From NCBI GenBank assembly GCA_007095785.1, contig SFBL01000022.1:1-48573 (forward strand): a DNA stretch of 48,573 bases. Direction: 5' to 3'. The position numbers and the translations under genes were made by a program. The notes under the pieces were generated by a model. That model was not told the DNA's origin. It did not search any database and was given only the letters and a program-made list of their open reading frames with translations. Each line of letters begins with the position of its first letter. The stretch's first letter is position 1. Positions 7,031 through 45,185 of this stretch are shown one piece after another. Source of the stretch: Microcystis aeruginosa Ma_SC_T_19800800_S464 (lineage in GTDB: Bacteria > Cyanobacteriota > Cyanobacteriia > Cyanobacteriales > Microcystaceae).

Positions 7031-7097
7031 ACTCCTGAAAATAGGTGTGTAATTCGGGATTCTTGGCAAAGTTTCATTTGTAAACGCTATAGTTCTA

Positions 7098-7244
7098 TCA
7101 GAACCCTAATTTTAGCTGGTTAACGCACTGGGTTGTAATAAATTGTTGATTGATTAATTTTTGGAATTGTTTTTTTGCCAATGGGTGAAGTGAGTCGTTT
7201 TTATTAGCAAGAGCCAGCCAGAAACCAGGATCAACAATGATCAT
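7098..7244 (-). pseudogene. Truncated PIN-domain (VapC-like) toxin
   Basis: The frame starts with MIIVDPGFWLALANKND, the first strand and helix of a PIN domain with the first catalytic aspartate (D5), and continues to FITTQCVNQLKLGF before a stop after 48 residues. PIN toxins normally have about 130 residues and need three or four acidic residues, so this is a remnant without nuclease activity. Its ATG overlaps the end of the antitoxin gene at 7231-7479 (AAATATGATCATTG), the translational coupling usual in toxin-antitoxin operons. The remaining C-terminus has been lost. Confidence 0.7.
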
Positions 7245-7479: not shown

Positions 7480-7529
7480 TGTTTAAATGCGCAACAGCTT
7501 ATTCTCATTGTAGCAAATTACTGAAACAA

Positions 7530-7835: not shown

Positions 7836-8087
7836 ATTAACTCCTGAAAATATAGCGTTTCCTGTTCGCAAGAGGTACATTATCGATGTTAAAAAGCTTA
7901 ATTAGCAAAGGGTTAAGTGTGCCACCCAGGTGTGAGAACCGCTATAAGTGTGTAATTTGGAACAAGGGAAGGGAAATCTAACCTTGTAATTAAACCAGGT
8001 TCGTTGTCGATGCTCTAGCCCAATTTTCCCCAGAAGTTGGCGAGAGGAGCGCAACAACAAACCTTGTAATCAAACCAATCTTATCCT

Positions 8088-8113
8088 AGGTTGGGTTTCG
8101 TTCCTCAACCCAA
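8088..8113. repeat. Hairpin repeat overlapping the PIN gene 3' end
   Basis: TTGGGTT (8091-8097) pairs with AACCCAA (8107-8113) around TCGTTCCTC. This short palindrome is of a type scattered through cyanobacterial genomes. It supplies the last codons and the stop of the toxin gene on the minus strand and could end its transcript, though a clear T-run is missing. Confidence 0.5.
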
Positions 8114-8530
8114 TCTACAGATTACTAAAAATTGTTGATAAGTAACAATTTTAGTTATTCCAAATTGTTGCAAAATTAATAAATCTTGATCGCCTGTAAT
8201 TAAAAAATCAGCTTGACTATCTTTGGCTAAGGCTAAAAGGTAGTTATCTTTAGCGTCTCTACAGATATTAATTTTTGATTTAGTCTCAATACATAACCCA
8301 ATTATGCTTAAAAGTTCAAGTAACTCTTGAACTTTACTTTGGGGAAAATGCTTTTGTAATTTTGGTCTTTTGGTAACAAGGTTAATTTCATTAAGTAGCT
8401 GTGGAGAAAAAATCGGCACAAGAGTTTTTTCAATCAGTAGATATTTTAAACTGGCTAACTGTTTACCAATAAGAAAGCTAATCCAAAGGTTAGTATCAAT
8501 AATAACTTTAATCGGTGGCTTGTTGTCCAT
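8105..8530 (-). CDS. PIN-domain toxin (type II TA)
   Basis: The 141-residue protein is a PIN-family ribonuclease toxin of the cyanobacterial 'PIN component' type. The acidic residues that bind the catalytic metal are in place: D12 in VIIDTNLWISFL, E48 in SPQLLNEI, D92/D95 in CRDAKDNYLLALA, and D114/D116 in ITGDQDLL. Such toxins cut RNA when freed from their antitoxin. Its start overlaps the upstream antitoxin gene by 23 bases, indicating translational coupling. The last residues (CRLG) are encoded by the hairpin repeat at 8088-8113, suggesting that a repeat replaced or extended the original C-terminus. It appears intact. Confidence 0.85.
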   Translation of the reverse strand: MDNKPPIKVIIDTNLWISFLIGKQLASLKYLLIEKTLVPIFSPQLLNEINLVTKRPKLQKHFPQSKVQELLELLSIIGLCIETKSKINICRDAKDNYLLALAKDSQADFLITGDQDLLILQQFGITKIVTYQQFLVICRLG

Positions 8531-11141: not shown

Positions 11142-11193
11142 AAAAAACCTGAGATTGTTATATTCTACAGGTTACAAGCTTTTAAACGAGAGA
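11142..11193. repeat. About 50-bp direct repeat shared with 8769-8819
   Basis: AAAAAACCTGAGATTGTTATATTCTAC and the following bases to CGAGAGA are nearly the same as at 8769-8819. The segment covers the last codons and the 3' flank of the caspase-GUN4 gene. The other copy is read as the remains of a second such gene. Confidence 0.65.
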
Positions 11194-23844: not shown

Positions 23845-25908
23845 TTACTCAAATTGGCCAAGTAAAAGACTCATTTCGTTAACAACATTCTCACTTGCTT
23901 TTAACGCTTCTTTTCTAATTGCTTGAATTTCAGCCATACTTTTTGCTATTCTCTGCTGTTCAGATTTGGGGGGAATAGGGACTAAAACTTTTGACAAATC
24001 ATCTACTAAAATAGTAGGAATCGCATGACCTGTCATGTACCTTTTAATCTGACGCAAAAAAAAGTCTGTTCGCATATATACTAATAAAAACAAAGGCTCG
24101 ACTCCCTGAATATTTCTTAATACTGAAAATCCATTTGAGCAAATTGCTCCGTCTTCATCTTCCGTGATTAGGGCTGTTGCTTGGCGTGGTGTTCCTGTAC
24201 TTGCTCCTGAAATTGCTGTAATAATATCGCCTTTGTACAATTTATATGTTGCGCGAGATGGAGCTTGATGTGCTTTGATTATTTGTTGAGAAACAACTTG
24301 CATTGTACGATAATCAACATCGGCAATAGCGATATATCTAATTTCACTATCTTTGGCTAAACGAAAATCAGCTGAATCTCTCAAAATATCGGCAATTTCA
24401 GCTAAAGGTTTCGCTCCAATAGATTTTAGATGTTCTAATAATTTTTGGTCATTGGGTAAATAATGTTCGGCATCCAGTCTCGAATTGAGCAGGGTATTCT
24501 TAACTGTATAAATACAATCGCTGTTTTGTGCAAATTCGCCATTGATAAATGACCTAAAAGATTGAGAAATATCATCTATATCATCGTCAACTATTGGCAA
24601 ACCTGATTTTGTTCGGGCTATAACTCCCGACTCGTTGCGCTTATATATTGTTTGTCCTTTAACGTCATAGCCTATTTTTTTGATTTGTGCCATAAAACAA
24701 GAATCATTGTCTGCTGGTAATTTTTGAACTACCAAAAGTGATGTCTTGATTCCAGTGCCGTAGGGTACAAAGGCTTCCGGCGGTATGGAAACAACACCTA
24801 ATATTTTTGTTTGGGAGCGCAACCAATGCCGAATCGGTCCATTAGAGATATTTTGTAATAAACCATCGGGCAGAATAATCGCCATGCGTCCACCTGCCCG
24901 CAATAATTTTATAGATTTCTCAATAAATAAAATATCGGGCGACTGACCCGCTAAAACGGTTGGGGAAACTTGCCAACTATTGGACGCTGATTTATGCCAT
25001 TTCCTGGCGAGAAGATATGATTGAAGAATTTTCTGGTCTTCTACTTTGCCTTTATTTCCGAAAGGAGGATTGGTCAAGATAACATCAAAGGAATTATTTA
25101 ATTTTTGATCTTCGATAAGTGCATTAGTGCAGATAATTTCTGAACCTGTGCCACCTTCAAAAACTAAACGAATCATTCCCGAAAGGGCGACATCAGGATT
25201 AAATTCAATTCCTGTAATACTTTCTTGCACAAAACTTGCTATATTGAACTCTGGATTATTTTGTCGAACATGGTTGATTGCTTGAATTAAAAAACCACCA
25301 CTTCCGCAAGCAGGGTCGATAATTTTTTCGTTTGGTTTGGGGTCTATCATTTCAACCGCAAGGCGGACAATTGGGTGAGGGGTAAAAAATTCTCCCCTAT
25401 CTCCACGCTGGTGTCTATTTACAAAAGTCTGAAAGGCTTCCCCTTTTATATCGCCAGATGTTTTAGTTAAATTAATGTACTGTAACCTGCCTACAATATA
25501 AGCAAGAGTCAAAGGTTTTAACTTGAATGTGTCATCGGTGAAAAATCCCCGATAATGATTCTTGATGGAGGTAAATAATTGACTGAGACGCGACATAAAT
25601 TCATCGGACTTATTTGCTCCGATGGCTTTATATTCACTTGCTGTAACGCCAAAATTTACAGATTGCTTGGCAGATTTTTCATCATGAAGTTTGATGATGA
25701 TTAGTTTAACCATCTCGTGAAAAATCTTGTCTTTGAGCATTCCTTCGTTGGCGTAAATATAATTATGGCACTCTTCAAAAACTGCGGAAAGATTGTTAGA
25801 AGGTCGTAATTCCTGAATTTGCGGGAGTTTTTCAGGTAACAGGCTATCTTCGGAAAATAACAATCCTTGCTCTTTCATTTTTCCAGTTTGCTGCTGTCTT
25901 CTGTCCAT
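23845..25908 (-). CDS. N6-adenine methyltransferase fused to a specificity domain (M-S fusion)
   Basis: The 687-residue protein combines an HsdM-like gamma-type adenine methyltransferase with a C-terminal HsdS-like target-recognition domain. The N-terminal helical part (about 40-165) is followed by RGDRGEFFTPHPIVRLAVE, motif I DPACGSGGF (198-206) and motif IV NPPF (280-283). From about residue 480 the sequence turns to a recognition domain: ILRDSADFRLAKDSEIRYIA, LYKGDIITAISG, and the end motif VPIPPKSEQQRIA. Only one recognition domain is present, so the target is probably either a short non-bipartite sequence or is read by a dimer (inference). There is no translocase domain. The upstream nuclease gene ends 3 bases before the ATG, so they form an operon. 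Alternative start: residue 11 (MKEQGLL). Confidence 0.85.
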   Translation of the reverse strand: MDRRQQQTGKMKEQGLLFSEDSLLPEKLPQIQELRPSNNLSAVFEECHNYIYANEGMLKDKIFHEMVKLIIIKLHDEKSAKQSVNFGVTASEYKAIGANKSDEFMSRLSQLFTSIKNHYRGFFTDDTFKLKPLTLAYIVGRLQYINLTKTSGDIKGEAFQTFVNRHQRGDRGEFFTPHPIVRLAVEMIDPKPNEKIIDPACGSGGFLIQAINHVRQNNPEFNIASFVQESITGIEFNPDVALSGMIRLVFEGGTGSEIICTNALIEDQKLNNSFDVILTNPPFGNKGKVEDQKILQSYLLARKWHKSASNSWQVSPTVLAGQSPDILFIEKSIKLLRAGGRMAIILPDGLLQNISNGPIRHWLRSQTKILGVVSIPPEAFVPYGTGIKTSLLVVQKLPADNDSCFMAQIKKIGYDVKGQTIYKRNESGVIARTKSGLPIVDDDIDDISQSFRSFINGEFAQNSDCIYTVKNTLLNSRLDAEHYLPNDQKLLEHLKSIGAKPLAEIADILRDSADFRLAKDSEIRYIAIADVDYRTMQVVSQQIIKAHQAPSRATYKLYKGDIITAISGASTGTPRQATALITEDEDGAICSNGFSVLRNIQGVEPLFLLVYMRTDFFLRQIKRYMTGHAIPTILVDDLSKVLVPIPPKSEQQRIAKSMAEIQAIRKEALKASENVVNEMSLLLGQFE

Positions 25909-32675: not shown

Positions 32676-34322
32676 ATGAAAATTATCCAGCTTAACACCT
32701 ACGACATCGATGGGGGGGCAGCTAGGGCTGCCTATCGGTTACACCGGGGACTAATTGAGATTGGGCAAAAGTCCCGCTTGCTGACAACTTCCAAGCGATC
32801 ACGCGATGAAACCGTCTCCCTCCTATCTCCTCAACCGCGAACAGGAGAAAGCGACAGTGACTATCTTTCTCTCATCCAAAAGCACTATATCAGTGCCAAT
32901 CGAACGCCCCTGTCCAACACGCTGTTTTCTCTGCCCTATCCAGGACTTGACCTGACTCAATTGCAAGACATCCTGGCGGCAGATATTATTAACCTGCACT
33001 GGATCGCCCATTTCCAATCTCCAGTTACTCTCAAGAAGCTGCTCGACTTGGGAAAACCAGTTGTCTGGACGCTCCATGATATGTGGGCTTTCACTGGTGG
33101 GTGTCACTATGCCTCCGGCTGTAACCAATACCAGGAGGATTGCACTAACTGTCCTCAACTAGCGCAAGATCACTATCATCTAGCCTCCGCTATTTTAAAA
33201 GATAAATTAGACCGATTAACTCATGCGAACTTAACCATCGTGACTCCTAGCCGGTGGTTGGCGGGATTGGCGAGAAATAGCCGCCTGTTTCAACATCATC
33301 GTGTCGAGGTGATCCCCTATTCCCTAGAGACAAATATATTCATCCCATTAGGGAAAGCGACCGCGAAACAGCGTTTGGGTATCGCTCCCGATACGATGAC
33401 TCTTCTCGCTGGTGCTGGGGATGGTAACGAGCGCCGGAAAGGATTTTCTGAGTTATTGCAAGCTCTGGAAATTTGCGGCGAAGACGATCGCTGGCGGGAT
33501 ATCGTAAAAACGGGACGGGTGACACTCCTGTGTTTCGGAAACCCGAACGAGCGATTACACTCTCTTGACCTACCAGTGGTTTTTCTCGGCCGTATCACTT
33601 CCGACGAGAAATTGAGAGAGATTTATTCTGCGGCCGATCTTTTTATCCTGCCTTCTCTAGAGGATAATTTACCGAACACCCTGTTAGAGTCTATGAGTTG
33701 CGGGACTCCAGTTATCGCTTTTCCCGTGGGAGGTATTCCCGATATCGTCGAGAATGGCGTTACTGGTCGGATACTGTCCACGATCAATCCAAAGGAAATG
33801 GCCCAGGCGATTATCGAGTGTGCGGGCGATCAGGCGTTATGCTGGCAGATGGGGAAAAAAAGTCGTCAGGTCATGGAAAGCAATCACGCCCTTCCGGTAC
33901 AGGCCAAGCACTATCTAGATCTCTATCGGGATTTGCTGGAGAACCAATCCGTGGAGGACGGGAGAGCGATATTTGATGTTTGGGGGGATGTTTTGGTTGC
34001 TCCCGTTCCCGTAGAGCTTACTAGGGGAGCGAACTTCGAGCGAATTTTCCCGCTATTGGTCTTGGAATCGCTCCGGGACGAACTGGCCGGATTAAGGGAA
34101 CAACTAGCCCGAACCGAGGGAGAATTAGAGATTTCCCGAACGGTAACGGGGCAAACGCAGGCCGCGTTAAGTGAGGCTCGAATCGAGTTGGAACGCACGC
34201 AGAAAGAATTAGGGCGGGTGCGGGGGCGAGTTCTCGCGATGGAAACGAGTAAGTTCTGGCGGTTTAGGTCGTTGTGGTTCCAGTTCAAGCGGGCGCTAGG
34301 ACTGACGACCGAACTAGATTAA
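32676..34322 (+). CDS. GT4 glycosyltransferase with coiled coil and shared C-terminal tail
   Basis: The 548-residue protein has a complete GT-B fold. The N-terminal domain begins KIIQLNTYDIDGGAARAAYR and contains WTLHDMWAFTGGCHYA and a four-cysteine patch (CNQYQEDCTNCPQ). The C-terminal domain has the nucleotide-sugar motif FILPSLEDNLPNTLLESMSC (E-x7-E) and FPVGGIPDIVENG. From about residue 455 there is a coiled coil (LREQLARTEGELEISR; ARIELERTQKELGRVRG) and then a 30-residue basic-aromatic tail with AMETSKFWRFRSLWFQFK (34230-34319) that also ends two unrelated proteins in this cluster. This enzyme type builds capsular or colanic-acid-like polysaccharides. It is divergent in strand from galE downstream. 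Confidence 0.85.
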   Translation: MKIIQLNTYDIDGGAARAAYRLHRGLIEIGQKSRLLTTSKRSRDETVSLLSPQPRTGESDSDYLSLIQKHYISANRTPLSNTLFSLPYPGLDLTQLQDILAADIINLHWIAHFQSPVTLKKLLDLGKPVVWTLHDMWAFTGGCHYASGCNQYQEDCTNCPQLAQDHYHLASAILKDKLDRLTHANLTIVTPSRWLAGLARNSRLFQHHRVEVIPYSLETNIFIPLGKATAKQRLGIAPDTMTLLAGAGDGNERRKGFSELLQALEICGEDDRWRDIVKTGRVTLLCFGNPNERLHSLDLPVVFLGRITSDEKLREIYSAADLFILPSLEDNLPNTLLESMSCGTPVIAFPVGGIPDIVENGVTGRILSTINPKEMAQAIIECAGDQALCWQMGKKSRQVMESNHALPVQAKHYLDLYRDLLENQSVEDGRAIFDVWGDVLVAPVPVELTRGANFERIFPLLVLESLRDELAGLREQLARTEGELEISRTVTGQTQAALSEARIELERTQKELGRVRGRVLAMETSKFWRFRSLWFQFKRALGLTTELD

Positions 34323-34330
34323 CGATCGCT

Positions 34331-35338
34331 CTAAGGTGATAATGTACCGTGCCTTTTCTGATGCCATCGCCAAGCATCGGCGATAATCGTCGAGAGGTGA
34401 TGGTGTTGTGGTTGCCAACCGAGCAGGGTTCTAGCTCTCTCGCCGCTACCGACCAGGATCGGCGGATCGCCTATCCTGCGATCGCCCTCGATGACGGGAA
34501 TCTCTCTACCGGTGATCGTTCGAGCGGTCTCGATCACTTCCCGCACGGAAAATCCGCAACCGTTACCGAGATTAAAAATATCCGAGCGATTCTCGGCGAG
34601 AAGATAGCGTAGGCCGAGGTGGTGAGCTTGGGCGAGGTCGGTGACGTGAATATAATCCCGGATACAGGTACCGTCCGGAGTGGGGTAATCGGTTCCGTAG
34701 ACGGCGATCGCTTTTCTCTTTCCTAGGGCGGTTAGGAGAACTAGGGGAATCAGATGGGGTTCCGGATCGTGATCTTCTCCCAGATTGGCTTCGGCAGAAG
34801 CTCCCGCGGCGTTGAAATAGCGGAATATCAACGATTTTAGTCCGTAGGCACGATCGAAATCGCGGAGAATTCGCTCGACCATCAATTTACTCGCCCCGTA
34901 GGGGTTGATCGGTCGTTGGGGATGGTTTTCTAGAATGGGGACGATATCGGGCACGCCGTAGGTGGCGCAGGTGGAGGAGAAAACGATTTTTTTCACGTTC
35001 GCCGCTATCATCGCTTCTAACAGCGTCAGGGTACCGAGGACATTATTACGGTAATATTTGGCAGGATCGCCCACGGATTCGCCCACGTAGGCGTAGGCGG
35101 CGAAGTGCATGACGGCGGTGATATCGTGGGTCTTGAAGAGTCGATCGAGGAGGGGGCGATCGGCGAGGTCGCCGATGACGAGGGGAACTTTGAGAACGGT
35201 ATCGACAAACTCGCGGTGTCCGTAAATTAAATTGTCTAAAACAACAACTTTGTAGCCTTCTCGTTGTAAGGATAAGATGATATGAGAGCCGATATATCCT
35301 GCTCCGCCCGTTACTAAAATTGTTTGAGCTTGATTCAT
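34331..35338 (-). CDS. galE: UDP-glucose 4-epimerase
   Basis: The 335-residue enzyme interconverts UDP-glucose and UDP-galactose (or the N-acetyl sugars) using bound NAD+. The dinucleotide site is VTGGAGYIGSHIIL; the catalytic SxxxxYxxxK segment is seen as SSTCATYG and NPYGASKLMVERIL; the C-terminal part has GTCIRDYIHVTDLAQAHHLG and FNLGNGCGFSVREVI, all typical. It would supply galactose units to the neighbouring glycosyltransferases. Base composition is richer in G+C than the genes just upstream. Its ATG overlaps the stop of the small upstream gene as TAATG, so translation is probably coupled. Confidence 0.93.
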   Translation of the reverse strand: MNQAQTILVTGGAGYIGSHIILSLQREGYKVVVLDNLIYGHREFVDTVLKVPLVIGDLADRPLLDRLFKTHDITAVMHFAAYAYVGESVGDPAKYYRNNVLGTLTLLEAMIAANVKKIVFSSTCATYGVPDIVPILENHPQRPINPYGASKLMVERILRDFDRAYGLKSLIFRYFNAAGASAEANLGEDHDPEPHLIPLVLLTALGKRKAIAVYGTDYPTPDGTCIRDYIHVTDLAQAHHLGLRYLLAENRSDIFNLGNGCGFSVREVIETARTITGREIPVIEGDRRIGDPPILVGSGERARTLLGWQPQHHHLSTIIADAWRWHQKRHGTLSP

Positions 35339-35598
35339 TAGCTAAAATTACCTTTTATATTTTCGTAAAATTTTAGGATTTGCGCATTAACAAAAATAGC
35401 TGGAGCACCAATAGGAAGATAATTATACCAATTATCATCTTTTGCAAATTTTCCAAATAAGAAATGTTGACTCCGAAACCAACCATCAATATCAAAATAA
35501 TTGATAGGTAGGCAAAAAGCAACAACTAAACCAAAAATTAGACTAATAATAACAAATAATATATCTAATTTTTTAGACTCAGATAACTGTATTTTCAT
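35338..35598 (-). CDS. Small membrane protein, possibly the N-terminal part of a longer one
   Basis: The 86-residue product has one hydrophobic segment at residues 12-32 (ILFVIISLIFGLVVAFCLPI), preceded by a short basic/polar end and followed by IDGWFRSQHFLFGKF and PAIFVNAQILKFYEN. No family is recognised; the layout resembles the first membrane helix and loop of a polytopic glycosyltransferase, cut short. It overlaps galE by one base (TAATG), suggesting coupling. AT content is higher than in galE. No good ribosome-binding site precedes the ATG. Confidence 0.45.
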   Translation of the reverse strand: MKIQLSESKKLDILFVIISLIFGLVVAFCLPINYFDIDGWFRSQHFLFGKFAKDDNWYNYLPIGAPAIFVNAQILKFYENIKGNFS

Positions 35599-35638
35599 GT
35601 TAATACAACCATGAATAGGTTAATGACAACATCAGGCT

Positions 35639-37240
35639 TTAGATTCTAAGTAAATTATCTATAATTTTTAGATCGTTATCTTCAGTGACGATCCCTAAAC
35701 TTGCTATCGATTCAAATTCTTTTCTCGCTCGCTCTACATCACCTAAATGAATATAAAGCATAATTTTAGATGCCATAATATTAGGTTTCGCTTCTTGAGG
35801 GACTATCTGAATTGAATACTCAAAGGCTTTATTAATTTCGTCTGGAGAAAAATCTTGAAATGAATAGGTTTGTCGAAAAAATTCTTGAGGAATTTCTTTG
35901 TCGTATCTAAATATCATAGAACTAGAAGGTACATACTTAATTGGTGAGAAATAATCTTTTAGTCTATACATTATCAAGTGAATCCAAGAAGTGTAATAAT
36001 GAACAAAGTCTTGATGTTGAATTATCGAAACATTGGGAATCAAGAATGGAAAAAAATCTTGCAAGATACTGTTTGTTAATTCCCAAGATTTCATAGCATT
36101 GATAACTAAAAATTCTATCGGTAAATTTTGAGACCATTTTAATCTTGTTAAATCACCAGGGTAAACTTTGATCTGCTTTTCCCAAGGCTTAGTTTGCTCC
36201 AGAAAATCAGCTAGAAAACTATCACCTTCTCTATATTTATTTTCTAGTGAAGTTCCCTTAACGCAAGGCTCCATCCAAGATTCCCATATAAAAATGTCAT
36301 AAGCGTGAATGCAAACTCTATCTTGTTCTATTGTAGAGTTTTCTTTCAATCCTAAAACTAATGGGATAGTTAGCGATCCTAACCAGCAACCTAAATCTAC
36401 TATCTCTCCCCGTCCCGTATAACTATTTTTTGCGTATTCCTGTAAGTATTTACGTTCAAAGGCAGAAGTCATACCGACCAAATATGACATTTCATGCTCA
36501 GGCTCTGAAGAGGATAGATCGACTGGCAGAAGGGGAATAAAATAGGGCATATGCCTTGCTTGAGAATTATTCCAGCCATAGGAATTCACTTTATCATTGA
36601 GAAAATAGGATGGAAAAAACGTGAGATCGGCTTGCTCGAAAGATTGTTGCTCTCGGAAGCAACTGTCGCTAAACCATCGATCGGTGACTATAGTATCGTT
36701 AGCCTCGTAAACCCACTCGAAACATCCGTGAATAGTGACACCGATAATACAGTTTGCGGGCAGAACTCCCGCTCGCTTCGCTTGAATGGTATGGTAGCCA
36801 AAACCATTGACATCGGGAAATTCTATATAAATCGAGGTTTCTGGAAAAGAAGCCGCTAGAGCTTGAATGAAAAACAAGCAACAGATACTCTGATAGGTAA
36901 AGTAAAAATCGGATTCAGCTATTTCTATCATAGAGAGGTGGAAGGGTTGAAGATTGGCAATATCCTCGACCTCGCTGGTGGAGAAAATATTTTTAAGGGC
37001 GGGTATATTAGACTCTCCTTGATATTTTTCTTCGGATTGGCAGAGTAGTAAAATAGTATGCCAATTAGCTTCCTTTAACTTTTTACTCAAGGCCGTGTAA
37101 TAGGTACCGATTCCGCCGTTCTTCGAGAATCCCTCGTACTCGTTCGTGGCCAATATCGCAACCTTTTCAGGCGCGGTCTCTCCAAAAAGAGAGCGACAAC
37201 GAGGCTTGATCGAGGGAATTAACATTTTATCGGCTATCAT
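35639..37240 (-). CDS. Fusion: GT-B N-terminal-like domain plus methyltransferase-like domain
   Basis: The 533-residue protein has two parts. Residues about 25-233 (KVAILATNEYEGFSKNGGIG, YIEFPDVNGFGYHTIQAKRA, WVYEAND, TFFPSYFLNDKVNSYGW) form a GT4/GT5-type N-terminal Rossmann half with the GGIGTYY loop that in GT-B enzymes binds the acceptor. No C-terminal nucleotide-sugar half follows. Residues about 260-460 look like a class I methyltransferase (GEIVDLGCWLGSLTIPLVL as motif I, VCIHAYDIFIWES, LPIEFLVINAMKSWEL), and the end resembles a short helical repeat (IMLYIHLGDVERARKEFESI). AGGA precedes the ATG. A homologous half-GT domain ends the next gene upstream, in a different fusion. Confidence 0.6.
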   Translation of the reverse strand: MIADKMLIPSIKPRCRSLFGETAPEKVAILATNEYEGFSKNGGIGTYYTALSKKLKEANWHTILLLCQSEEKYQGESNIPALKNIFSTSEVEDIANLQPFHLSMIEIAESDFYFTYQSICCLFFIQALAASFPETSIYIEFPDVNGFGYHTIQAKRAGVLPANCIIGVTIHGCFEWVYEANDTIVTDRWFSDSCFREQQSFEQADLTFFPSYFLNDKVNSYGWNNSQARHMPYFIPLLPVDLSSSEPEHEMSYLVGMTSAFERKYLQEYAKNSYTGRGEIVDLGCWLGSLTIPLVLGLKENSTIEQDRVCIHAYDIFIWESWMEPCVKGTSLENKYREGDSFLADFLEQTKPWEKQIKVYPGDLTRLKWSQNLPIEFLVINAMKSWELTNSILQDFFPFLIPNVSIIQHQDFVHYYTSWIHLIMYRLKDYFSPIKYVPSSSMIFRYDKEIPQEFFRQTYSFQDFSPDEINKAFEYSIQIVPQEAKPNIMASKIMLYIHLGDVERARKEFESIASLGIVTEDNDLKIIDNLLRI

Positions 37241-37278
37241 AATTAGTTCCTATTTATAGTTAGCTTATACTTATCGAA

Positions 37279-38937
37279 TTAAACCATCGGTATGTAATTA
37301 GGCAGATGGGCCGCGTTATCGGTATGCCATCCGTAAGTATCTACTTTAGACTTGAGGGTGTAGGAAGGAAAAAAAGCGAGATCTGCCTCTTCAAAGGAAA
37401 TTTGCTCGAAATTATACACTTTCCATAAGCTCTCAAGATTACTTCGTTCGTTAGTGTATTTCTCATTCGCTTCATGCACCCACTCATGACCGCTGTGCAT
37501 GGTTACTCCTATCTGGCAATTGTCCATAAGACATCCTGCCCGCTTGGCCTGTATCGTTCGATAACCTAGCCCCGACATTTCGGGAAATTCAACGTAAACT
37601 TTGGAATTGGGAAATTGATTGAGAATCGCCTGCACGAAAAAGAAACAGCAATAACTTTGGTAATCGTACCAGTTTCCCCAGACAGGGGATAAAAGTGAGA
37701 AGTGGTTCGCTCGCATATCTAAAATCCTTCGGATTTCAGAAGTCAAAAAAATATTCTGTAGTTCTGGATAATTCGACGGATCGTTCAATATTGTCTCGTA
37801 ATCACAGAGTATTAAAATAACAGACCATCCCTGTTTGAACAGCTTTTTTGCTAGATTTTTATAATAAGTTCCCACGCCACCATTTTTAAAGATACCCTCG
37901 TATTCGGAAGTGGCTAATACGGCTACTTTTTCGGAAGCGACTCGCAATAAAATTTTTTGAACTTCGGACTGAAAAAACACGGTATGGTTTTCTCCGATTA
38001 CCGAATCCGATGCCCCTGTTTTAGGAAAGGAAGAAATTTCAAGCGGACGCGGATTTGGTATAGACAGGAGCGGAGCCTTATCATAGAGAGTGAAGGTATC
38101 CGAATCGTTTACTCGCACTCTAAATTCCCCCTCGCACGGCAAAATATGAAGCCGACCATCTTGATAGCCGTAGGTAAAACGATTATTGGCGGAGATAAAA
38201 ACATCACCCGCACGATGGAGGGGTTGACCGCTACGGGGGCAGGCCAACAAGGGAAAGAACCATTCTGACGAGTCTAGCCGAGCGGAGGCTTCAAAGTAAT
38301 GAGCCGGCGCAGGTTTCTCTACGCCGGGTTTCCGAACGATCACGTATTCTGTATTGTTTGTGTTCGGAGAGTTTTTACCTAGAATTCTACCTAGGGATAA
38401 TTGCCGCAGTAGACTATACCAGAAAGGCCAGGTAATTTTCTGGGGCACATTGACCTGTAAATATTCCCATAAAAGCCAGGCCAGAGTCTGGCCGAAGTGA
38501 TGGGCCGAGCGGGTTTCTACTATCTCGAAACCTGCGTATTCCATCAGCTCGACCAATCCGTTACCCGTGAATCGAACGAAATCGTAAGGGCAAGCGTGGC
38601 GAGGTTGTAGGAAAGGAACCGCAATCACCCCGTACCCTCCCGACCGCAGAACTCGATAAAATTCTCCCACAACGATCCAAGCGTACCGGGTATGTTCTAA
38701 TACTGCGATACTGACGAGCGCGTCCACGGATTCATCTAGTAGGGGAATACGATGTAGATCAGCCACAATATCCGGGTCGTTTTCTGGAACGATATCGATA
38801 TTTAAATCTTTCTGCCCGAGTTGGACGCTTCTACTGCCCGAACCAGCGTTAAGGACAATTCCCTGAAAATATTTCATAAAAGGAGCCAGTTCCTCGGAAA
38901 GGGAAGGCCAGACCAGAGGGTATTTAAATATGTCCAT
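37279..38937 (-). CDS. Fusion: methyltransferase, Trm112-like segment, GT-B N-terminal-like domain
   Basis: From ATG 38937 (GGGA six bases before it) the protein has 552 residues. Residues 1-210 are a class I methyltransferase (GIVLNAGSGSRSVQ; VDALVSIAVLEHTRYAW; RVLRSGGYGVIAVPFLQPR). About 220-290 contain LLACPRSGQPLHRAG and YQDGRLHILPC, a Trm112-like segment that in related proteins helps methyltransferases; only one of the usual Cys pairs is left here. Residues about 344-552 are the same half-GT domain as in the gene at 35639 (KVAVLATSEYEGIFKNGGVG; YVEFPEMSGLGYRTIQAKRA; FFPSYTLKSKVDTYGWH), and the protein stops just where a GT-B linker should begin (NYIPMV). The ORF could start upstream at 39000 or 38949. 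Confidence 0.6.
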   Translation of the reverse strand: MDIFKYPLVWPSLSEELAPFMKYFQGIVLNAGSGSRSVQLGQKDLNIDIVPENDPDIVADLHRIPLLDESVDALVSIAVLEHTRYAWIVVGEFYRVLRSGGYGVIAVPFLQPRHACPYDFVRFTGNGLVELMEYAGFEIVETRSAHHFGQTLAWLLWEYLQVNVPQKITWPFWYSLLRQLSLGRILGKNSPNTNNTEYVIVRKPGVEKPAPAHYFEASARLDSSEWFFPLLACPRSGQPLHRAGDVFISANNRFTYGYQDGRLHILPCEGEFRVRVNDSDTFTLYDKAPLLSIPNPRPLEISSFPKTGASDSVIGENHTVFFQSEVQKILLRVASEKVAVLATSEYEGIFKNGGVGTYYKNLAKKLFKQGWSVILILCDYETILNDPSNYPELQNIFLTSEIRRILDMRANHFSLLSPVWGNWYDYQSYCCFFFVQAILNQFPNSKVYVEFPEMSGLGYRTIQAKRAGCLMDNCQIGVTMHSGHEWVHEANEKYTNERSNLESLWKVYNFEQISFEEADLAFFPSYTLKSKVDTYGWHTDNAAHLPNYIPMV

Positions 38938-39177
38938 GTAATATCCCATCACGCATATTTTGTCACTTTTGTAAGCCTGGAGATGAAAATAGATTATCAC
39001 ACACTTGTAATTTTTTATCTCTCCCCCGACAGATATCTAATCCGCTAAAGTTCCTAATCGTGACTTAAGGGTCTTCGGTAGCGAAACTTATTTGCCCAAG
39101 TGTAATGCACCTAAACGCGGTGGACTTTGGACGGTCTTGGCGGAGCCAAGACCGTTAATCATGTAGATGCGCCATGT

Positions 39178-40431
39178 TTACTCTTTGTTTCCCAGACCGA
39201 GGGTTCGCTTAAACTGAAACCAGCTTTTTCTTAGCTTCCAGAATTTACTACTTTCCATGGCTTCGATCCGTTCTTGCGCCTGCGATAGATGCTCTTGATA
39301 ATGTTCGTGAGAGTTCTTTAAATCTAGCAGTTCGGCCTGTAACTGTTCCGTCCGAACCTGATTGCGGTATAACTCGGCCTTGGTCGCTTCTAGTTGTGAC
39401 TGGCTGTAGTTCAGTTCAGCCGTCGACTGTTCTAGATGCGACCGGCTCTCGTTCAGTTCGGTTCTGGTGGCTTCCAGTTGCGACCGGCTCTCGTTCAGTT
39501 CGGCCGTCGACTGTTCTAGCTGATCGCTTGTATTATCTAGATTGCGGTGCGCTAGGGAAAGTTCGCTCTGGCTATTTTCTAAATCGGAGCGGATTTGTTC
39601 CATAGAGCCGAGAGCTAACATGATGGAGCGCATCGGTGTCTGAGAGAAAGCCACGGAATTGCCCAAGCGATCCGGTTCGATCCCGGCAACAACAAAATAA
39701 CCGTCCGCGTTTTCGATCGAAGAAACATCCTCTATATACTCTCTTTCAAAGAAGTTGTCTGGTAAAGGTTGTTTATAAGAATCAAATAAAGCCGACTTTC
39801 CTCCCAACCGAACAGGTAGTAAAAGACAACTACCGAGAACCGTATGCTGTCCGAAAAAAACGCCCTCACCGAAAATGCTAAGGAACAGATCGCGGAACTC
39901 GTTAAATCTAAATTTATGAAGATGAAACTCGCTAATCCAAGGAGTTACCCGATAATCATTCGGGCAGGACATAAATATCTGTCCACCTGGCTTTAATAGT
40001 CTTCTGATTTCGCTCAGGAAGACTTTAGGGTGGGGTAGGTGTTCGATCGTCTCGAAAGAAACAATCACATCGAAGGAATGATCCGCTAGTTCTGGCACCG
40101 ATTGTGCATCCGCAATAATGTACTCGATAGCGGGATGAGCGTGAAACTGTAGCGCGTGTTCGATCGCCTGTCGATCTATATCGACCCCGACTACCCGTTC
40201 GGCTCCCTGTAGAGCCATAAAATGGGAGCCGTAACCACTGCCACAGGTGATATCGAGAACTTTTTTTCCCTGAATGAAGGGGCAGACAAAGCCGTACCGA
40301 ACTAAATGCTCGATATTGCCCCAACTTAGATCTACTCCCGTCGCCGCCATAATGTGGCGCTCGCCAGTGAATTCGAGTTCTGGGGAATCCTGCTGACCCG
40401 ATGTTCCCACTTTCTGATTTTCTGGTTCCAT
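39178..40431 (-). CDS. Methyltransferase with coiled coil and shared C-terminal tail
   Basis: The 417-residue protein is a class I SAM-dependent methyltransferase: VLDITCGSGYGSHFMAL (motif I), VVGVDIDRQAIEHA (acidic end of strand 2), SFDVIVSFETIEHLP, and RLLKPGGQIFMSCPN. From about residue 280 a long coiled coil follows, with 14-residue units such as ELNESRSQLEATRT and ELNESRSHLEQSTA repeated at DNA level (about 39380-39510). The last 29 residues (39181-39267) carry the tail AMESSKFWKLRKSWFQFK shared with two glycosyltransferases in this cluster. It probably methylates sugars of the surface glycan, inferred from context. Confidence 0.8.
   Translation of the reverse strand: MEPENQKVGTSGQQDSPELEFTGERHIMAATGVDLSWGNIEHLVRYGFVCPFIQGKKVLDITCGSGYGSHFMALQGAERVVGVDIDRQAIEHALQFHAHPAIEYIIADAQSVPELADHSFDVIVSFETIEHLPHPKVFLSEIRRLLKPGGQIFMSCPNDYRVTPWISEFHLHKFRFNEFRDLFLSIFGEGVFFGQHTVLGSCLLLPVRLGGKSALFDSYKQPLPDNFFEREYIEDVSSIENADGYFVVAGIEPDRLGNSVAFSQTPMRSIMLALGSMEQIRSDLENSQSELSLAHRNLDNTSDQLEQSTAELNESRSQLEATRTELNESRSHLEQSTAELNYSQSQLEATKAELYRNQVRTEQLQAELLDLKNSHEHYQEHLSQAQERIEAMESSKFWKLRKSWFQFKRTLGLGNKE
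39380..39520 (-). repeat. Coding direct repeats in the coiled coil
   Basis: The blocks GTTCAGTTCGG, CGACCGGCTCTCGTTCAG and GTCGACTGTTCTAG recur at roughly 42- and 84-base steps, encoding the repeated ELNESRS and LEQSTA segments. They allow changes in coiled-coil length by unequal recombination. Confidence 0.65.
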
Positions 40432-41005
40432 ATCGCTATCGGAGGATAAATTCTATCAATATTTTCTTTTCACTCTCGTCTCGGTCTTTTCCCTCGGAAA
40501 GGGTTCCGAAGGCGGCATCCCTCGATATGCCTATTTTTCGAAGGATTCAGGGCTCTTCTCGACTTTGTGTGATAATTTTTGCTTATGTAAGTTTAAATGC
40601 TTACTGGGCAAGACTTTTAGGACTATTTTGAAAGAAGAAACTATCAGTATAGACCTCGTTTCCACACAGAAACCAGAAGAGCCGATTCAGGTCGTCGGAC
40701 GCGGAGAAACCCGAGTTTAGACAACTATACCGTTTCTCTTGCCCTTACGGCCGATTCGGCGACGGTTCACGAGTTATGGGGAAAAGTGATTTTCGCCTCA
40801 TCTGGTCGCGGGCGATCAAACTACCGAGAGGAGGCAACTTTTTCGGGAGCGGGTAGTCTGACAGATCGATCAACGTTCCCAAAGTTCACTGCTGCCCATA
40901 TAATTATCACCATTGGATATTTCCTAAAAGCTCTCGACTTTTTCGGAGAATTATTCTAAACATTTCCAAGAACCCTCTATCGTTTTTGCCTTAACTATTA
41001 CTATT
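40432..41005. other. 574-base stretch between divergent genes
   Basis: No recognised gene. The frame of the following glycosyltransferase is open upstream of its ATG from 40928 (KLSTFSENYSKHFQEPS) but has no start codon or ribosome-binding site. G+C content resembles the neighbouring genes, so part may be decayed coding DNA. See the inversion finding. Confidence 0.4.
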
Positions 41006-42688
41006 ATGGATGAAATAAACACGATCGGGATCGATAGTAACAGTACGGAGTGTCTTACTGGTTCGGACTCTCGGAAAGCTAAACCTATCGAGGCCTCGGA
41101 TCGAAAAATCCCGATTGTTTTTTTCGGCCGTCTCGAAGAAAGAAAAGGACTGCGCACTTTTGTTGAAGCACTCCAGTGTCTCGACTCGTCTTTACAGCAA
41201 AAACTCAAAATTACATTTTTAGGAAAAGTTGTTCCGCTCTATTCGGCCGAGTTATGCCATCTGAATAGCCAACAATACATCGAGCGCGAACTGAAAGATC
41301 GGGTTTCCTACGAGATTGTCTCGAACCTGTATAGCGCCCAAGCGATCCAGTATATTCGCGACCTCGATCACCCGATCGTCTGTCTTACCAGTCCCGAAGA
41401 AAATTTTCCCAATACCGCTCTAGAAATGGGACAGCTTCCCGTCAACCTCGTGGTTTCCGATACGGGAGGCTTTCGCGAAACCCTACAACTGGTAAACCGG
41501 CAATCGGGACTCTATTGGTTTAAACCGAAAGATGCCGATTCGCTGGCCCTGATGATCTCTAAAGCCGCGCTCGATTATCCGCGAAGCCCCACCGTTTCCA
41601 GCCGCGCCGAGCTAGAGCGGGTGAACCAAGATCTACTCGCAAAAAAACTCGAACATATCGAACAAGCGTTCCTGCGGGCCGTTACTCCCGACGAATCTCC
41701 TTTACCCAAGATCACGATCGCGATCCCCTATTACAATCAGGGAAAACTTCTTCCCGATTGTTTGGCAAGAATAGAAGCGCAAACCTACGCGAACGTGGAA
41801 GTGATCGTAGTAGATGACGGCTCGACCGAAGAATACAGCCGAGATCTATTCGATCGCTACAGTTCTCTCTTGCCGAACTGCCAGTTTATCCGGCTAGAAA
41901 CCCGACAAGGTTTAGGATCGGTTCGCAACTTCGCAGTCGCGCAATCGACTGGGGACTATTTTCTTGCTATCGATCCCCACGTCTTGTTAATGCCTTTTGC
42001 CCTAGAAAAATTCGCCGAGGCAGCCTGTCGATCAGGTGCCGCTATTGTCACCTGTCCCAGAAAAGAAGTGGGCGCAGTGGAACGGCTCGTAAATTTCCCC
42101 GGCGGGTCTCTGCCGGTTTTACTCCAATCAAACGTTTACGGACAGGGCTGTCATTTATTTTCCTTACCTTTATTGAAAAAGTTCCAACAGACCGAGAGCA
42201 AGGATATCCGCACTCAGTCTTGGGAAACGATCGCTGCTGCGGTAGTGATCGGGGAAAAAATTATCACCTATCCCTATCCTCTCTACGAGTACCGAGTGAC
42301 CGCGGAAACGGGAAATATCGATCAACCCCATCCCCGAGAGCAGTATTCTCTCCGTCAATATCTAGCGAAAATCCCCCCGGCTCAATGGTCGCCCCGACAG
42401 ATTTATATGTTATTAACGGCTATCCAGCAACTACAAAACAGTCCGCCCGTGGAAGAAGAAGCTCACTCGCGAATAGCGGCGTTACAGTTCGAGAATCACG
42501 CTTTACACGCAGAGATATCCAAATTACGGTCGCAGATCGCTGTTTTACAGCCTGAAATAGAACGGATAGCCAATGAAGCGCATATTGCAAAAGAGCGAGT
42601 TAACGCAATGGAAACGAGCAAATTCTGGAAATTGCGGAGTCGTTGGTTCCATATCAAGCGTGCGGTGGGCTTGCCCACAAGCGAGTGA
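41006..42688 (+). CDS. Bifunctional glycosyltransferase (GT4 C-terminal half plus GT2) with coiled coil and shared tail
   Basis: The 560-residue protein starts with only the C-terminal half of a GT-B enzyme (residues 35-225: PIVFFGRLEERKGLRTFVEA; CLTSPEENFPNTALEMGQ with the E-x7-E-type motif; SDTGGFRETL). A complete GT2 (GT-A) domain follows (234-450: KITIAIPYYNQGKLL, EVIVVDDGSTEEYSRD, RLETRQGLGSVRNFAV). The usual DxD metal motif is represented only by AIDPHVLL. A coiled coil (about 470-530) and a 29-residue tail AMETSKFWKLRSRWFHIK (42599-42685) end the protein. The GT-B N-terminal half is missing and no ribosome-binding site precedes the ATG, suggesting that the gene lost its 5' part. Confidence 0.7.
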   Translation: MDEINTIGIDSNSTECLTGSDSRKAKPIEASDRKIPIVFFGRLEERKGLRTFVEALQCLDSSLQQKLKITFLGKVVPLYSAELCHLNSQQYIERELKDRVSYEIVSNLYSAQAIQYIRDLDHPIVCLTSPEENFPNTALEMGQLPVNLVVSDTGGFRETLQLVNRQSGLYWFKPKDADSLALMISKAALDYPRSPTVSSRAELERVNQDLLAKKLEHIEQAFLRAVTPDESPLPKITIAIPYYNQGKLLPDCLARIEAQTYANVEVIVVDDGSTEEYSRDLFDRYSSLLPNCQFIRLETRQGLGSVRNFAVAQSTGDYFLAIDPHVLLMPFALEKFAEAACRSGAAIVTCPRKEVGAVERLVNFPGGSLPVLLQSNVYGQGCHLFSLPLLKKFQQTESKDIRTQSWETIAAAVVIGEKIITYPYPLYEYRVTAETGNIDQPHPREQYSLRQYLAKIPPAQWSPRQIYMLLTAIQQLQNSPPVEEEAHSRIAALQFENHALHAEISKLRSQIAVLQPEIERIANEAHIAKERVNAMETSKFWKLRSRWFHIKRAVGLPTSE

Positions 42689-42864
42689 TCATGACTTCTG
42701 GACGACAACCCACCATGCACGGGATTCCCGATCGAGCATAGGAATTTTGGCGTTGCTGATTTTAAGTACAAATTCTCCTCTAGGCAATTCTTAAAACCCA
42801 GGACTAGGCTAACTTGTGGATACGATGCACAATTAGCATTGATATCCTGTTTCGGCAATGCCAA

Positions 42865-43035
42865 AAAGTTAATCTGGAAGAGGCCTGTAGACAAGTTCAA
42901 GATTTTCAGCAGTCTCAACGGCAACAACTTCAGGAGGAACTCGCTCGTACAGAACAAGCTCTAGAGGAAACCAAGCAAGAAATTGCCGCCATGAAAACCA
43001 GTAAATTCCTGAAACTGAAAGCTATATTCTCCTAA
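42865..43035 (+). pseudogene. 3' fragment of another coiled-coil/tail gene
   Basis: The frame, open from about 42814 to 43035, encodes a coiled coil (LEEACRQVQDFQQSQRQQLQ, LARTEQALEETKQEIA) and then AMKTSKFLKLKAIFS, a cut-short version of the C-terminal tail found on three enzymes of this cluster (tail part 42982-43032). No catalytic domain precedes it, and the last half of the tail is missing. It is best seen as the leftover end of a deleted glycan-cluster gene. Confidence 0.65.
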
Positions 43036-43249
43036 AATTTTCCTAAACTGTCCCTAGACTGATGATTTCCTCCTTTCCCCTCCCCAGTTCCTTAAACTAC
43101 AGTCGCATCCGTCTCGACATCCGTTGATATGAATGCTCTCCCCATAGAGAAAAAAAATCAGGCTCCCTATCGTTCTCCACATCCCCGTCCAATGCACGCT
43201 TGCGGTCATGATGGCGACACAGCGATCGCTGTTGGTACGGCATCTACTT
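43036..43249. other. Stretch without a supported gene
   Basis: About 210 bases between the fragment above and a MITE. The minus strand has a short open frame (RHHDRKRALDGDVENDRE), of coding-like composition, but it matches no family I recognise and one end lies in the MITE. A HIP1 octamer lies at 43222. Confidence 0.3.
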
Positions 43250-43449
43250 GGGGTTGGCTGAATAAATCTAAAAACCTTGTTGGATAAGGCTTTGAGACTT
43301 TTTTCCCTCAAAAAGTGCCGACCATTGGAGTGATCGGGGGTAAAATTCAGGTACTTTTTCCCTGAAAATTAGGTAACTGACTACCTCAAAATCGGTAAAA
43401 CCCTACACCCCACACTCTGCCCCCAGGAAAAACTTTTTCAGCAGACCCC
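43250..43449. repeat. MITE-like element, copy 5 (reverse orientation)
   Basis: GGGGTTGGCTGAATAAAT at the left and TTTTTCAGCAGACCCC at the right form imperfect terminal inverted repeats. The interior matches copies 2 and 3 reversed (AAAAAGTGCCGACCATTG; CCTGAAAATTAGGTAACTGA; GGTAAAACCCTACACCCC). No direct duplication is evident at the ends, and the element cuts into a short open frame on its right side. Confidence 0.75.
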
Positions 43450-43577
43450 GCATAACACAAAATAAGCATCTTGTCAAGGGGTCTGTAAAAATTATTTTCC
43501 AACCAGCGGAAGAAAGGCCAGGCGGTGCTAAAGCGATGATTGCGGCGGTAGTCGTCAAAAATAGGATGTGGAGTCAA
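43450..43577 (-). pseudogene. Truncated ORF of unknown function
   Basis: A frame starting at 43577 reads MTPHPIFDDYRRNHRFSTAW, then PFFRWLENNFYRPLDKML, and runs into the MITE at 43449. The composition looks coding and the N-terminus looks native, but I do not recognise the family; a transposase or a small cyanobacterial protein are both possible. The MITE removed everything after about 43 residues. Confidence 0.35.
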
Positions 43578-43753
43578 CTATTAGCTGTTTTGCCCCCTAT
43601 TATCGTCGATAATAACAAGTCTGACAATTTATCTGACCCTCACCTGACCACGGCCGAACCCTCGTAGAAGTTGGACAAGGGGCAAAGTTTAATAGGGAAT
43701 CACTGAATAGGCCGCCAGCTTGTTAGAGTATTGGGAGTAATTTTGAGCGAGCG

Positions 43754-45142
43754 ATGATACTACAGCCTTTCCTTTCTTCCGCTTGGAGTCCTAATCTTCC
43801 CCTGTTAGCCTCGGCAGCTACAGCCGAAACTGCTGATAGTGCCTTAGTTTTAGCCTGCGTGCTGCTGAGTTTGACCGTTATTTATTTCGCCTGTAAACTG
43901 GGGGGGGAAATATGCGTCCGATTCAACTTGCCTCCAGTGTTAGGAGAATTAGTCGGTGGCGTGATTATCGGGGTTTCTGCCCTAAAATTACTGGTTTTTC
44001 CAGAAGGAGGGGCGGGATTCGAGGATTCTTTGCTAATTCATTTCCTAGAATCCACTTCCCCCCTCACCCCAGAGCAATCTCCCGCCGTTTTTAGTGCTGC
44101 CAGTGAGGTAATTTCCGTCCTCTCGGAATTGGGGGTAATTATCCTGCTGTTTGAGATCGGTTTAGAATCGGACTTGCAGGAATTAATTCGCGTCGGTCCA
44201 CAGGCAGCTGCTGTGGCAGTGGTGGGGGTTGCGGTTCCCTTTTTGGTGGGTACTTTGGGTTTAATCTATATTTTCCATCTGGCCACCATTCCCGCTATTT
44301 TTGCCGGGGCAGCTCTAACCGCTACCAGCATCGGCATTACCGCCAAGGTTTTAGCAGAAATAGGGAAGTTATCGGCGAAAGAAGGTCAAATTATTATCGG
44401 GGCTGCGGTTCTCGATGATATTCTCGGTATTATCGTTCTCGCTGTCGTTGCTTCTTTGGTGAAGACTGGAGAAGTGCAGATTAGCAAAGTAATTTATCTA
44501 GTTATTAGTTCTAGCGCTTTTGTGATCGGGGCGATCCTGATCGGTCGTTTTTTAAGCCCCTTTTACGTTCAATTAGTTAATAGCATGAAAACTAGGGGAC
44601 AATTACTCTTAGTTTCCCTAATTTTCGCCTTTATTCTTGCCTATATTGCCCAAGTTATCCAATTAGAAGCGATTCTCGGTTCCTTTGCTGCGGGCCTAGT
44701 CCTAGCGGAAACGGAAAAGCGCTCGGAATTGGCAGCACAAGTGTTCCCGATCGCCGATTTATTCGTACCGATATTTTTCGTCTGTGTGGGGGCAAAAACC
44801 GATTTAAGTGTCCTTAATCCCGCTATTCCCAGCAATCGAGAAGGATTAGTCTTGGCCGCTTTCCTAATTGTCGTCGCTATTTTGGGTAAAGTGGTGACGG
44901 GGTTAGCCGTTTTCAGCCAGGAAAAACTCAATCGCTTGGCGATCGGAGTTGGCATGATTCCCCGGGGTGAAGTGGGTTTAGTCTTTGCCGGAGTCGGGGC
45001 TGCTAGTGGCGCTTTATCCCCCGCTACCGATGCGGCGATTATTATGATGGTGATCTCGACTACCTTTATCGCTCCGCCCCTGTTAAGGTTAGTATTTAAA
45101 GAACCCACCGCCAGCCCTCAATCAGTGAGCAGTGAGCAGTGA
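43754..45142 (+). CDS. nhaS3: Na+/H+ antiporter, NhaS3-like (CPA2)
   Basis: The 462-residue protein is a CPA2 cation:proton antiporter with about 12 membrane helices. The paired aspartates of the ion site are in GAAVLDDILGIIVLAVV; other family segments are LPPVLGELVGGVIIGVSAL, ELGVIILLFEIGLESDLQEL and GVGMIPRGEVGLVFAG. Length and sequence pattern fit Synechocystis NhaS3, which sits in thylakoids and is needed for Na+/K+ homeostasis. The symbol is assigned by resemblance. An N-terminal extension of about 30 residues precedes the first helix. The last codons (SVSSEQ) come from the CAGTGAG repeat array, so the C-terminus is shaped by that repeat. Confidence 0.8.
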   Translation: MILQPFLSSAWSPNLPLLASAATAETADSALVLACVLLSLTVIYFACKLGGEICVRFNLPPVLGELVGGVIIGVSALKLLVFPEGGAGFEDSLLIHFLESTSPLTPEQSPAVFSAASEVISVLSELGVIILLFEIGLESDLQELIRVGPQAAAVAVVGVAVPFLVGTLGLIYIFHLATIPAIFAGAALTATSIGITAKVLAEIGKLSAKEGQIIIGAAVLDDILGIIVLAVVASLVKTGEVQISKVIYLVISSSAFVIGAILIGRFLSPFYVQLVNSMKTRGQLLLVSLIFAFILAYIAQVIQLEAILGSFAAGLVLAETEKRSELAAQVFPIADLFVPIFFVCVGAKTDLSVLNPAIPSNREGLVLAAFLIVVAILGKVVTGLAVFSQEKLNRLAIGVGMIPRGEVGLVFAGVGAASGALSPATDAAIIMMVISTTFIAPPLLRLVFKEPTASPQSVSSEQ

Positions 45143-45185
45143 GCAGTTACCAGTGGCAGTGTTAAGTTACCAGTAGCAGTGTTAA
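45123..45185. repeat. CAGTGAG / CAGT-type tandem repeats
   Basis: Units CAGTGAG (three times) are followed by CAGTTAC, CAGTGGCAGTGTTAAGTTAC and CAGTAGCAGTGTTAAG, the last two being direct copies of a 22-base unit. The array begins inside the antiporter gene. Confidence 0.7.

Follow-up and report, generated by a model that had tools for sequence, protein, structure and literature searches.

Passages of the published work on WbdD describe the system closest to the one considered here. WbdD is 708 residues long (PMC3482155) and trimeric, and the helix shown to drive its trimerisation comprises residues 459-473 (PMC3482155). The C-terminus holds an amphipathic helix that places the protein on the membrane, and this region recruits the polymerase WbdA (PMC3447403, PMC3482155, PMC6286764, PMC5082667, PMC11231755). 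Full-length WbdD is hard to purify, whereas a construct of residues 1-600 was purified in large amounts (PMC3447403). Here we describe a tail of about 30 residues that closes three proteins encoded in 48,573 nucleotides of the Microcystis aeruginosa Ma_SC_T_19800800_S464 genome (contig SFBL01000022.1, positions 1 to 48,573, assembly GCA_007095785.1). This whole stretch is called the window below.

The likeness to WbdD of E. coli O8/O9/O9a and K. pneumoniae lies in the order of parts (methyltransferase, coiled coil, then a tryptophan/basic segment at the base of the coiled coil), in a gene position directly after that of an ATP-binding cassette (ABC) ATPase, and in a core, [IM]..[IL]..S[RK].W[RK], at a matching heptad phase. 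In contrast, WbdD continues for about 85-115 residues past the segment, WbdD of O9 also has a kinase domain, and the segment shows SRSW[RK].T where the cyanobacterial motif is SKFWKLRxxWF. In cyanobacteria, glycosyltransferases (GTs) and sulfotransferases carry the tail as well, often with several copies per cluster, and it usually ends the protein.

A common tail on unrelated enzymes

The carriers in the window are a GT4 glycosyltransferase of 548 residues (32676..34322, + strand; PF13692, PF00534, PF13439), a class I methyltransferase of 417 residues with a long coiled coil (39178..40431, - strand; PF08241, E 1e-23), and a 560-residue protein (41006..42688, + strand) in which the C-terminal half of a GT4 enzyme (PF00534, E 1.5e-11), without the GT-B N-half, is fused to GT2 (PF00535, E 7e-27). 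Each open reading frame closes in coiled coil and tail. The copies lie at 34224..34319 on the + strand (GRVLAMETSKFWRFRSLWFQFKRALGLTTELD; profile match 34224-34313, E 4.7e-21), 39181..39273 on the - strand (E 4.5e-21) and 42593..42685 on the + strand (ERVNAMETSKFWKLRSRWFHIKRAVGLPTSE; E 1.7e-22), all E-values coming from a profile that was itself made from these three tails. They have 15 invariant columns in common, R..AME.SKFW..R..WF..KR..GL.

Full-protein blastp among the carriers (E <= 1e-5, filtered) aligns the coiled-coil/tail ends alone (42-81 residues, 35-57% identity, E 1e-10 to 3e-14). Thus, the catalytic parts (GT4, class I methyltransferase, and GT-B C-half plus GT2) are unrelated. 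The reading frames and blastp bear out the preliminary description of this DNA, which reported three proteins with unrelated catalytic domains ending in coiled coil and a common tail, and the tails lie where it placed them. The tail pattern it gave, AMExSKFWKLR, is real, but the GT4 copy reads AMETSKFWRFR, not KLR. Codons at residues common to two tails agree in just 9/18, 11/20 and 7/18 cases in the three pairs, so these tails are not a recent DNA copy, and recent DNA exchange among them is unsupported.

The genome encodes a fourth full tail on a GT2 protein (contig C148, E 1.8e-7 with the three-tail profile); the next-best match (E 0.009) was judged to be due to chance. A larger tail profile again found four full tails, plus a short fragment. 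An AlphaFold2 model of the methyltransferase (m1d47f5f7958e) predicts a single helix, a coiled-coil stalk, at residues 265-393 (39253..39639, - strand), with a predicted local distance difference test (pLDDT) score of 72-86 from residue 291 and 42-61 before it. The model then predicts, within the tail, a break at serines 394-395 and a second, short helix at residues 396-410. The stalk is less evident in the other two carriers, which have runs free of helix breakers (Pro/GG/NG rule) of 62 residues in GT4 and 18 residues in GT4/GT2. The GT4 run precedes the tail at approximately 34062..34229 (+ strand) and has a weak coiled-coil Pfam match at residues 463-510 (E 0.051).

Across the phylum, the three-tail profile matches 41 of 194 genomes (E <= 1e-3), and a profile of 43 tails matches at least 80 of 386 genomes, in at least 47 of 142 genera. 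In a pattern scan covering 84,980 species genomes, 330 of 401 matches were confirmed; the best 79 of these 330 loci are all cyanobacterial by title. A first set comprises 88 proteins with 89 tails (E <= 0.1), of which 69 end 15 or fewer residues from the C-terminus and 20 are internal.

PEP-CTERM-type C-terminal sorting tags also provide a short common C-terminal element on many unrelated proteins. The cyanobacterial tail differs in that it lacks a long hydrophobic stretch, is preceded by a coiled coil and is often internal. Over all loci we counted 233 tail proteins, some of them twice due to genomes repeated in two sets, and 186 have a terminal tail. In the other 47 it lies over 20 residues before the C-terminus, sometimes between modules, and thus outside the extreme C-terminal position typical of PEP-CTERM. 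The element is C-terminal, as originally described, in most of its carriers but internal in the remainder, and so is not just a C-terminal tag.

The tail is a true module on non-homologous enzymes throughout the phylum. In the first set, blastp groups the sequences before and after the tails into 21 clusters without links between them, and GT domains join the 60 parts of the largest. Pfam was run on 20 representatives, 19 of which carry the tail at E <= 0.1 (L060 2275-4017 does not). The domains found include GT4, GT2, Methyltransf_24, FkbM, TylF and Sulfotransfer_1 (the carrier of the last, in L041, has only the first half of the tail), along with a 1616-residue multi-domain tail protein (L061 6478-11325) with Sulfotransfer_3, radical SAM, SPASM and class III aminotransferase domains. 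Among the 19 carriers, four have no Pfam match at E 0.001 and three have coiled-coil matches only. Methyltransf_11 and Methyltransf_23 occur in the window protein and in L072. Tailed homologues of the window GT4 protein are present in L046, L109 and L121. The profile is therefore not confined to one lineage of homologous full-length proteins, and the non-homologous carriers and internal placements support the earlier proposal that the tail was exchanged as a module. The tail of the L072 protein (5000-8296) is internal: a methyltransferase and a coiled coil come before it, and GT2 and then GT4 modules after it. Passages of PMC11231755 describe the same order, with a terminator, then a coiled coil and GT modules on a single chain, for K. 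pneumoniae O7 ORF6 and O12 WbbB. A 1058-residue protein in L050 (5547-8720) closes in two tandem tails. In the 25 of 41 tail genomes searched for GT2, strong matches number 14 to 54 per genome, as compared with 1 to 5 tails, and so the tail marks a small subset of enzymes.

None of the Pfam and NCBIfam matches listed for the window and representative tail proteins is specific to the tail, although weak generic coiled-coil Pfam matches extend into it in a few proteins (e.g., Fez1, CCDC22, ATG14). The words SKFWKLR, SSKFWK, TSKFWK and four SWRxT-type words had no match in the literature text searched, and a text search for the architecture led to a single paper, on Klebsiella. The tail does not belong to a named domain among the families listed. 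To call it an undescribed targeting tag, as suggested at first, is nevertheless too strong, since the base of the WbdD coiled coil, already known, plausibly corresponds to it in position and pattern.

When positions are counted from the first tryptophan, S-3, K-2, F-1, W0, R+3 and W+6 are each kept in 203-210 of 211 distinct tails, whereas positions +4, +5, +8, +11 and +12 are variable. In the same tails the mean net charge is +5.6, compared to -0.9 for the preceding stalk. Stalk heptads are in fixed phase with the tail: the fraction of L, I, V, M and F is 0.66 and 0.39 at two core phases and 0.09-0.19 elsewhere. The break-free stalk varies greatly in length (median 62, quartiles 33 and 125, range 8-273, n=217). 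The tail is also the best-kept stretch in an alignment of 18 methyltransferases.

Linkage to ABC exporters and comparison with WbdD

The tail is statistically tied to ABC-exported pathways. When 622 open frames around tails were clustered, the commonest tail-free families were that of an ABC ATPase, at 27 loci, and that of an ABC-2 permease, at 24. Used at fixed cut-offs, profiles of both families identified Wzm or Wzt at 26 of 54 tail loci (53 of which hold the tail by the larger profile) and at 46 of 79 named tail loci, but at only 1 of 40 control GT2 loci from the same genomes, which were hand-picked from the strongest listed GT2 matches distant from tails and hold no tail. Of 71 genes that directly follow wzt at tail loci, 49 encode a tail (a few genomes are counted twice); by sequence, Arthrospira sp. 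PCC 9108 (L107) is one example with tailed genes beside wzt. Among the tail genomes, 31 of 41 encode a Wzt_C domain (PF14524), as compared with 23 of 153 others, and a Wzm-like protein (E <= 1e-25) is present in 40 of 41 versus 42 of 153; at least five of the 153 (G014, G033, G045, G060 and G151) have a tail by the larger profile. Strong Wzt_C domains in tail genomes (>= 80 bits) are within 5 kb of a tail in 18 of 24 cases, whereas none of the 28 weaker ones is within 15 kb. Conversely, 18 of 41 genomes have tails within 15 kb of Wzt_C, 32 of the 85 tails in all.

Twenty Wzt loci without a near tail were fetched, and 19 show nothing convincing; the other, L221, encodes a variant tail, ENTRTWKLRSYW (E 1.8e-4). 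On plasmid pC052_D of Nostoc sp. C052 (L235), a tailed GT2-GT4 protein adjoins an ABC exporter and a sulfotransferase. As it is plasmid-borne, this set may travel.

Directly after wzt, E. coli HS has a gene for a 708-residue methyltransferase with a coiled coil, which we take to be WbdD. The base of its coiled coil reads IEKIHRSRSWRMT, with tryptophan at residue 595. The equivalent segment is MADLHNSRSWRIT in an O8-type protein and IAKIHYSRSWKMT in K. pneumoniae WbdD. Of the window carriers, the methyltransferase is a candidate terminator by its domain (PF08241), and the other two are GTs.

Similar segments, S.SW[RK].T.P.R at a coiled-coil base, are encoded on plasmids of Rhizobium CB3171 and CB3060, Pseudomonas BYT-5, Pantoea dispersa and E. 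coli KTa005. They were found with short queries in a plasmid collection, and single matches are weak (E 0.2 to 8), yet the segment is clear even in Pantoea, where E is 8. Photobacterium and Methylorubrum plasmid matches (E 8) were judged to be due to chance and dropped. As in Cyanobacteria, the enzymes concerned are unrelated (pyruvyltransferase-GT4, methyltransferase-RgpF, a methyltransferase, an annotated GT and, by eye, a methyltransferase-GT2 protein in CB3171), and those of Pseudomonas, Pantoea and E. coli KTa005 are encoded directly after an ABC ATPase gene. Both Rhizobium records lack annotation. The differences are that the proteobacterial segment is mostly internal and that its homology to the cyanobacterial tail is unproven. 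The heptad phase relative to the tryptophan is the same in six proteobacterial sequences (E. coli KTa005 left out) as in the cyanobacterial tails. The tail and the WbdD segment are alike in place and pattern, and they may or may not be homologous.

The glycan island and its edge

The preliminary description noted a shortened fourth copy of the tail on a gene fragment. Both are real: the 3' stub of a methyltransferase gene (42863..43060, + strand), with a short tail at about 42982-43032, has 95.5% DNA identity to L060 2247-2445 of the congener G097. That region is the end of an open 581-residue methyltransferase-domain frame closing in the identical short tail, AMKTSKFLKLKAIFS. The short tail is therefore older than the truncation and was not produced by it. 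Window positions 42863-43246 and 43453-45143 match L060 at 96-97% DNA identity, and at this edge of the island (window 42863-45143; L060 368-2445) the window retains only the last ~170 bases of the congener's frame. We infer that the island now in the window displaced most of an older tail gene.

Three further genes in the island encode no tail that we could find. UDP-glucose 4-epimerase (galE; 34331..35338, - strand) was identified by TIGR01179 (E 1e-133). The protein at 35639..37240 (- strand) has a GT-B N-half fused to a second domain, and tailed homologues of it occur in L038 (7085-8248) and L043 (6356-7510). The third (37279..39000, - strand; PF08241, PF08323) has a methyltransferase domain fused to a GT-B N-half homologous to that of its neighbour (222 residues at 49.6%). 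One GT-B enzyme thus appears to be split, with homologous N-halves in these two adjoining genes and the C-half at the start of the protein at 41006-42688. The fusion of GT4 and GT2 reported earlier is real in that GT2 is joined to a GT4 part, but this part is the C-terminal half alone. Other arrangements occur elsewhere: G187 encodes, within L046 6962-11207, a stand-alone GT-B N-half of 244 residues, and in Aphanocapsa lilacina (L121 3673-6099) N-half, C-half, GT2 and tail are joined in one 809-residue protein.

Two other domain fusions are encoded elsewhere in the window, one of a caspase-like peptidase with GUN4 (11168-12607) and one of an N6-adenine DNA methylase with a type I specificity domain (23848-25908).

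Possible roles of the tail

We suggest that the tail is a membrane-proximal docking foot of the coiled-coil stalk, gathering enzymes for ABC-exported glycans and working like the end of WbdD, and we consider this proposal evenly balanced between right and wrong. Each enzyme would oligomerise via its own coiled coil, with the helix predicted by the model to break at the invariant serine at the end of the stalk. A short, tryptophan-rich and strongly basic helix (KFWKLRxxWFxLKK) may then lie on the inner face of the cytoplasmic membrane and dock there on a common partner. Because the foot is interchangeable, it could gather unrelated enzymes (glycosyltransferases, methyltransferases and sulfotransferases) into one assembly. 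Held near the exporter, the assembly would build, modify and end a surface polysaccharide that is exported by the Wzm/Wzt ABC transporter. Such a role would resemble that of the WbdD C-terminus in E. coli O9a, except that several enzymes, and not the terminator alone, would have the foot. The module, its spread, the fixed heptad register and the exporter linkage are observed; the break comes from a model, and contact with the membrane, a common partner, oligomers and the assembly are inferred.

A membrane-surface or docking device for glycan enzymes had been proposed from the amphipathic spacing of tail residues. The Wzm/Wzt link and the WbdD parallel make such a device plausible, but the amphipathic argument is weak. 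The hydrophobic moment of the tails, 0.314, is only slightly above that of shuffled tails (0.293, standard deviation 0.0096). The helical signal sits in the conservation pattern, whose maximum over positions +1 to +15 is at 100 degrees per residue, a height reached by 167 of 20000 permutations. The signal is weaker for 0 to 13 (460 of 20000) and is not significant for -3 to +15 (1640 of 20000). The period over +1 to +15 speaks for the docking foot, as do the non-homologous carriers, the nearly invariant residues, the basic charge, the heptads in phase with the tail and the modelled break between two helices.

Like the small excess in hydrophobic moment and the weaker or non-significant periods, several further observations weigh against the docking foot. 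Side-chain conservation in the tail is stricter than lipid binding requires. The AlphaFold2 model was built with 18 sequences and has a mean pLDDT of 69 overall and 72-74 at the break and second helix. None of the solved structures searched has the tail (the best match, a gamma-tubulin ring protein at E 1.9, was judged to be due to chance). As regards the exporter, the Wzm/Wzt profiles were derived from the tail loci themselves, the loci are not independent (several per genome, with some genomes in both sets), and the co-occurrence counts are confounded by relatedness and genome size. About half of the tail loci (28 of 54 and 33 of 79) have no exporter in the stretch fetched. The window tail genes are not encoded with Wzm/Wzt or next to wzt: no exporter is beside the tails or among ten further window proteins scanned, and the genome's only close Wzm and Wzt are at the end of an 8.2-kb contig (C184), 69-71% identical to the pair beside the tail gene in G072.

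The comparison with WbdD has its own difficulties. The tail profile gives WbdD 0.4 bits, which is not significant, and in a search of both E. coli stretches WbdD is outside the 12 best frames. A search of the plasmid collection with the cyanobacterial tail (E <= 10) returned one Nostoc record and no proteobacterial plasmid. With both inputs cut at the tryptophan by hand, hhalign of seven proteobacterial segments (E. coli KTa005 included, Pantoea excluded) against the 211 tails placed 13 columns in register (E 7.8e-4, probability 25). As 3 of 200 column-permuted controls scored as high, this is only suggestive. Moreover, SRSWRMT occupies WbdD residues 592-598, inside the 1-600 construct that could be purified according to passages of PMC3447403. 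Thus, attachment of WbdD to the membrane does not come from this first part of the segment by itself, and the known membrane contact is probably after SRSWRMT.

Part of this evidence would fit a tail that is purely a protein dock, a short helical peptide recognised by a single conserved partner (e.g., the exporter or a polymerase subunit) without lipid contact of its own. The exact side chains at -3, -2, -1, 0, 3 and 6 are kept in at least 203 of 211 tails, tails within a genome are slightly more alike than those of different genomes (0.533 vs 0.501 for 84 tails, a value matched in 10 of 2000 label shuffles), and both the exporter linkage and the purifiable WbdD construct, which includes the first part of the similar segment, are in keeping with it. 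We nonetheless think it unlikely, though a serious candidate, given that the high positive charge and tryptophan content also fit lipid and that no partner is singled out, the Wzm-like protein being present in 40 of 41 tail genomes but also in 42 of 153 others.

The fixed heptad phase between coiled coil and tail raises the question of whether the tail merely caps the oligomer, ending the coiled coil and setting its register or strand number, with no docking role. WbdD is trimeric, although its trimerising helix (459-473) is distant from the segment according to passages of PMC3482155. A cap is improbable, as invariant residues lie beyond the last heptad, after the predicted break, and a preference for exporter loci would not be expected of it. 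More improbable by far is a recombination handle or relic, a segment that persists as a site where genes break and join and whose peptide has no function. The older tail gene of the window does survive only from within its coiled coil onward, at the island edge, but the tail is the best-kept stretch of the 18 aligned methyltransferases, and a DNA handle would keep its DNA, whereas the window tails, where their residues are identical, agree in only 7-11 of 18-20 codons.

Beyond the docking foot in Cyanobacteria, we tentatively raise, as a broader possibility that we would not bet on, that an ancient exchangeable foot common to Proteobacteria and Cyanobacteria defines the enzymes that join the machine for ABC-exported glycans. 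Cyanobacteria would have made this foot a general address on many enzymes, so that pathway membership could be read from 30 residues. The assembly of enzymes for ABC-exported glycans is known in detail for few systems. If the docking foot is real, a single foot on unrelated enzymes would let sequence alone predict which cyanobacterial enzymes share one assembly. It would also provide a 30-residue handle for the study of membrane docking, complex formation and chain-length control, and would help to assign roles to the uncharacterised coiled-coil proteins encoded in polysaccharide clusters of cyanobacteria.

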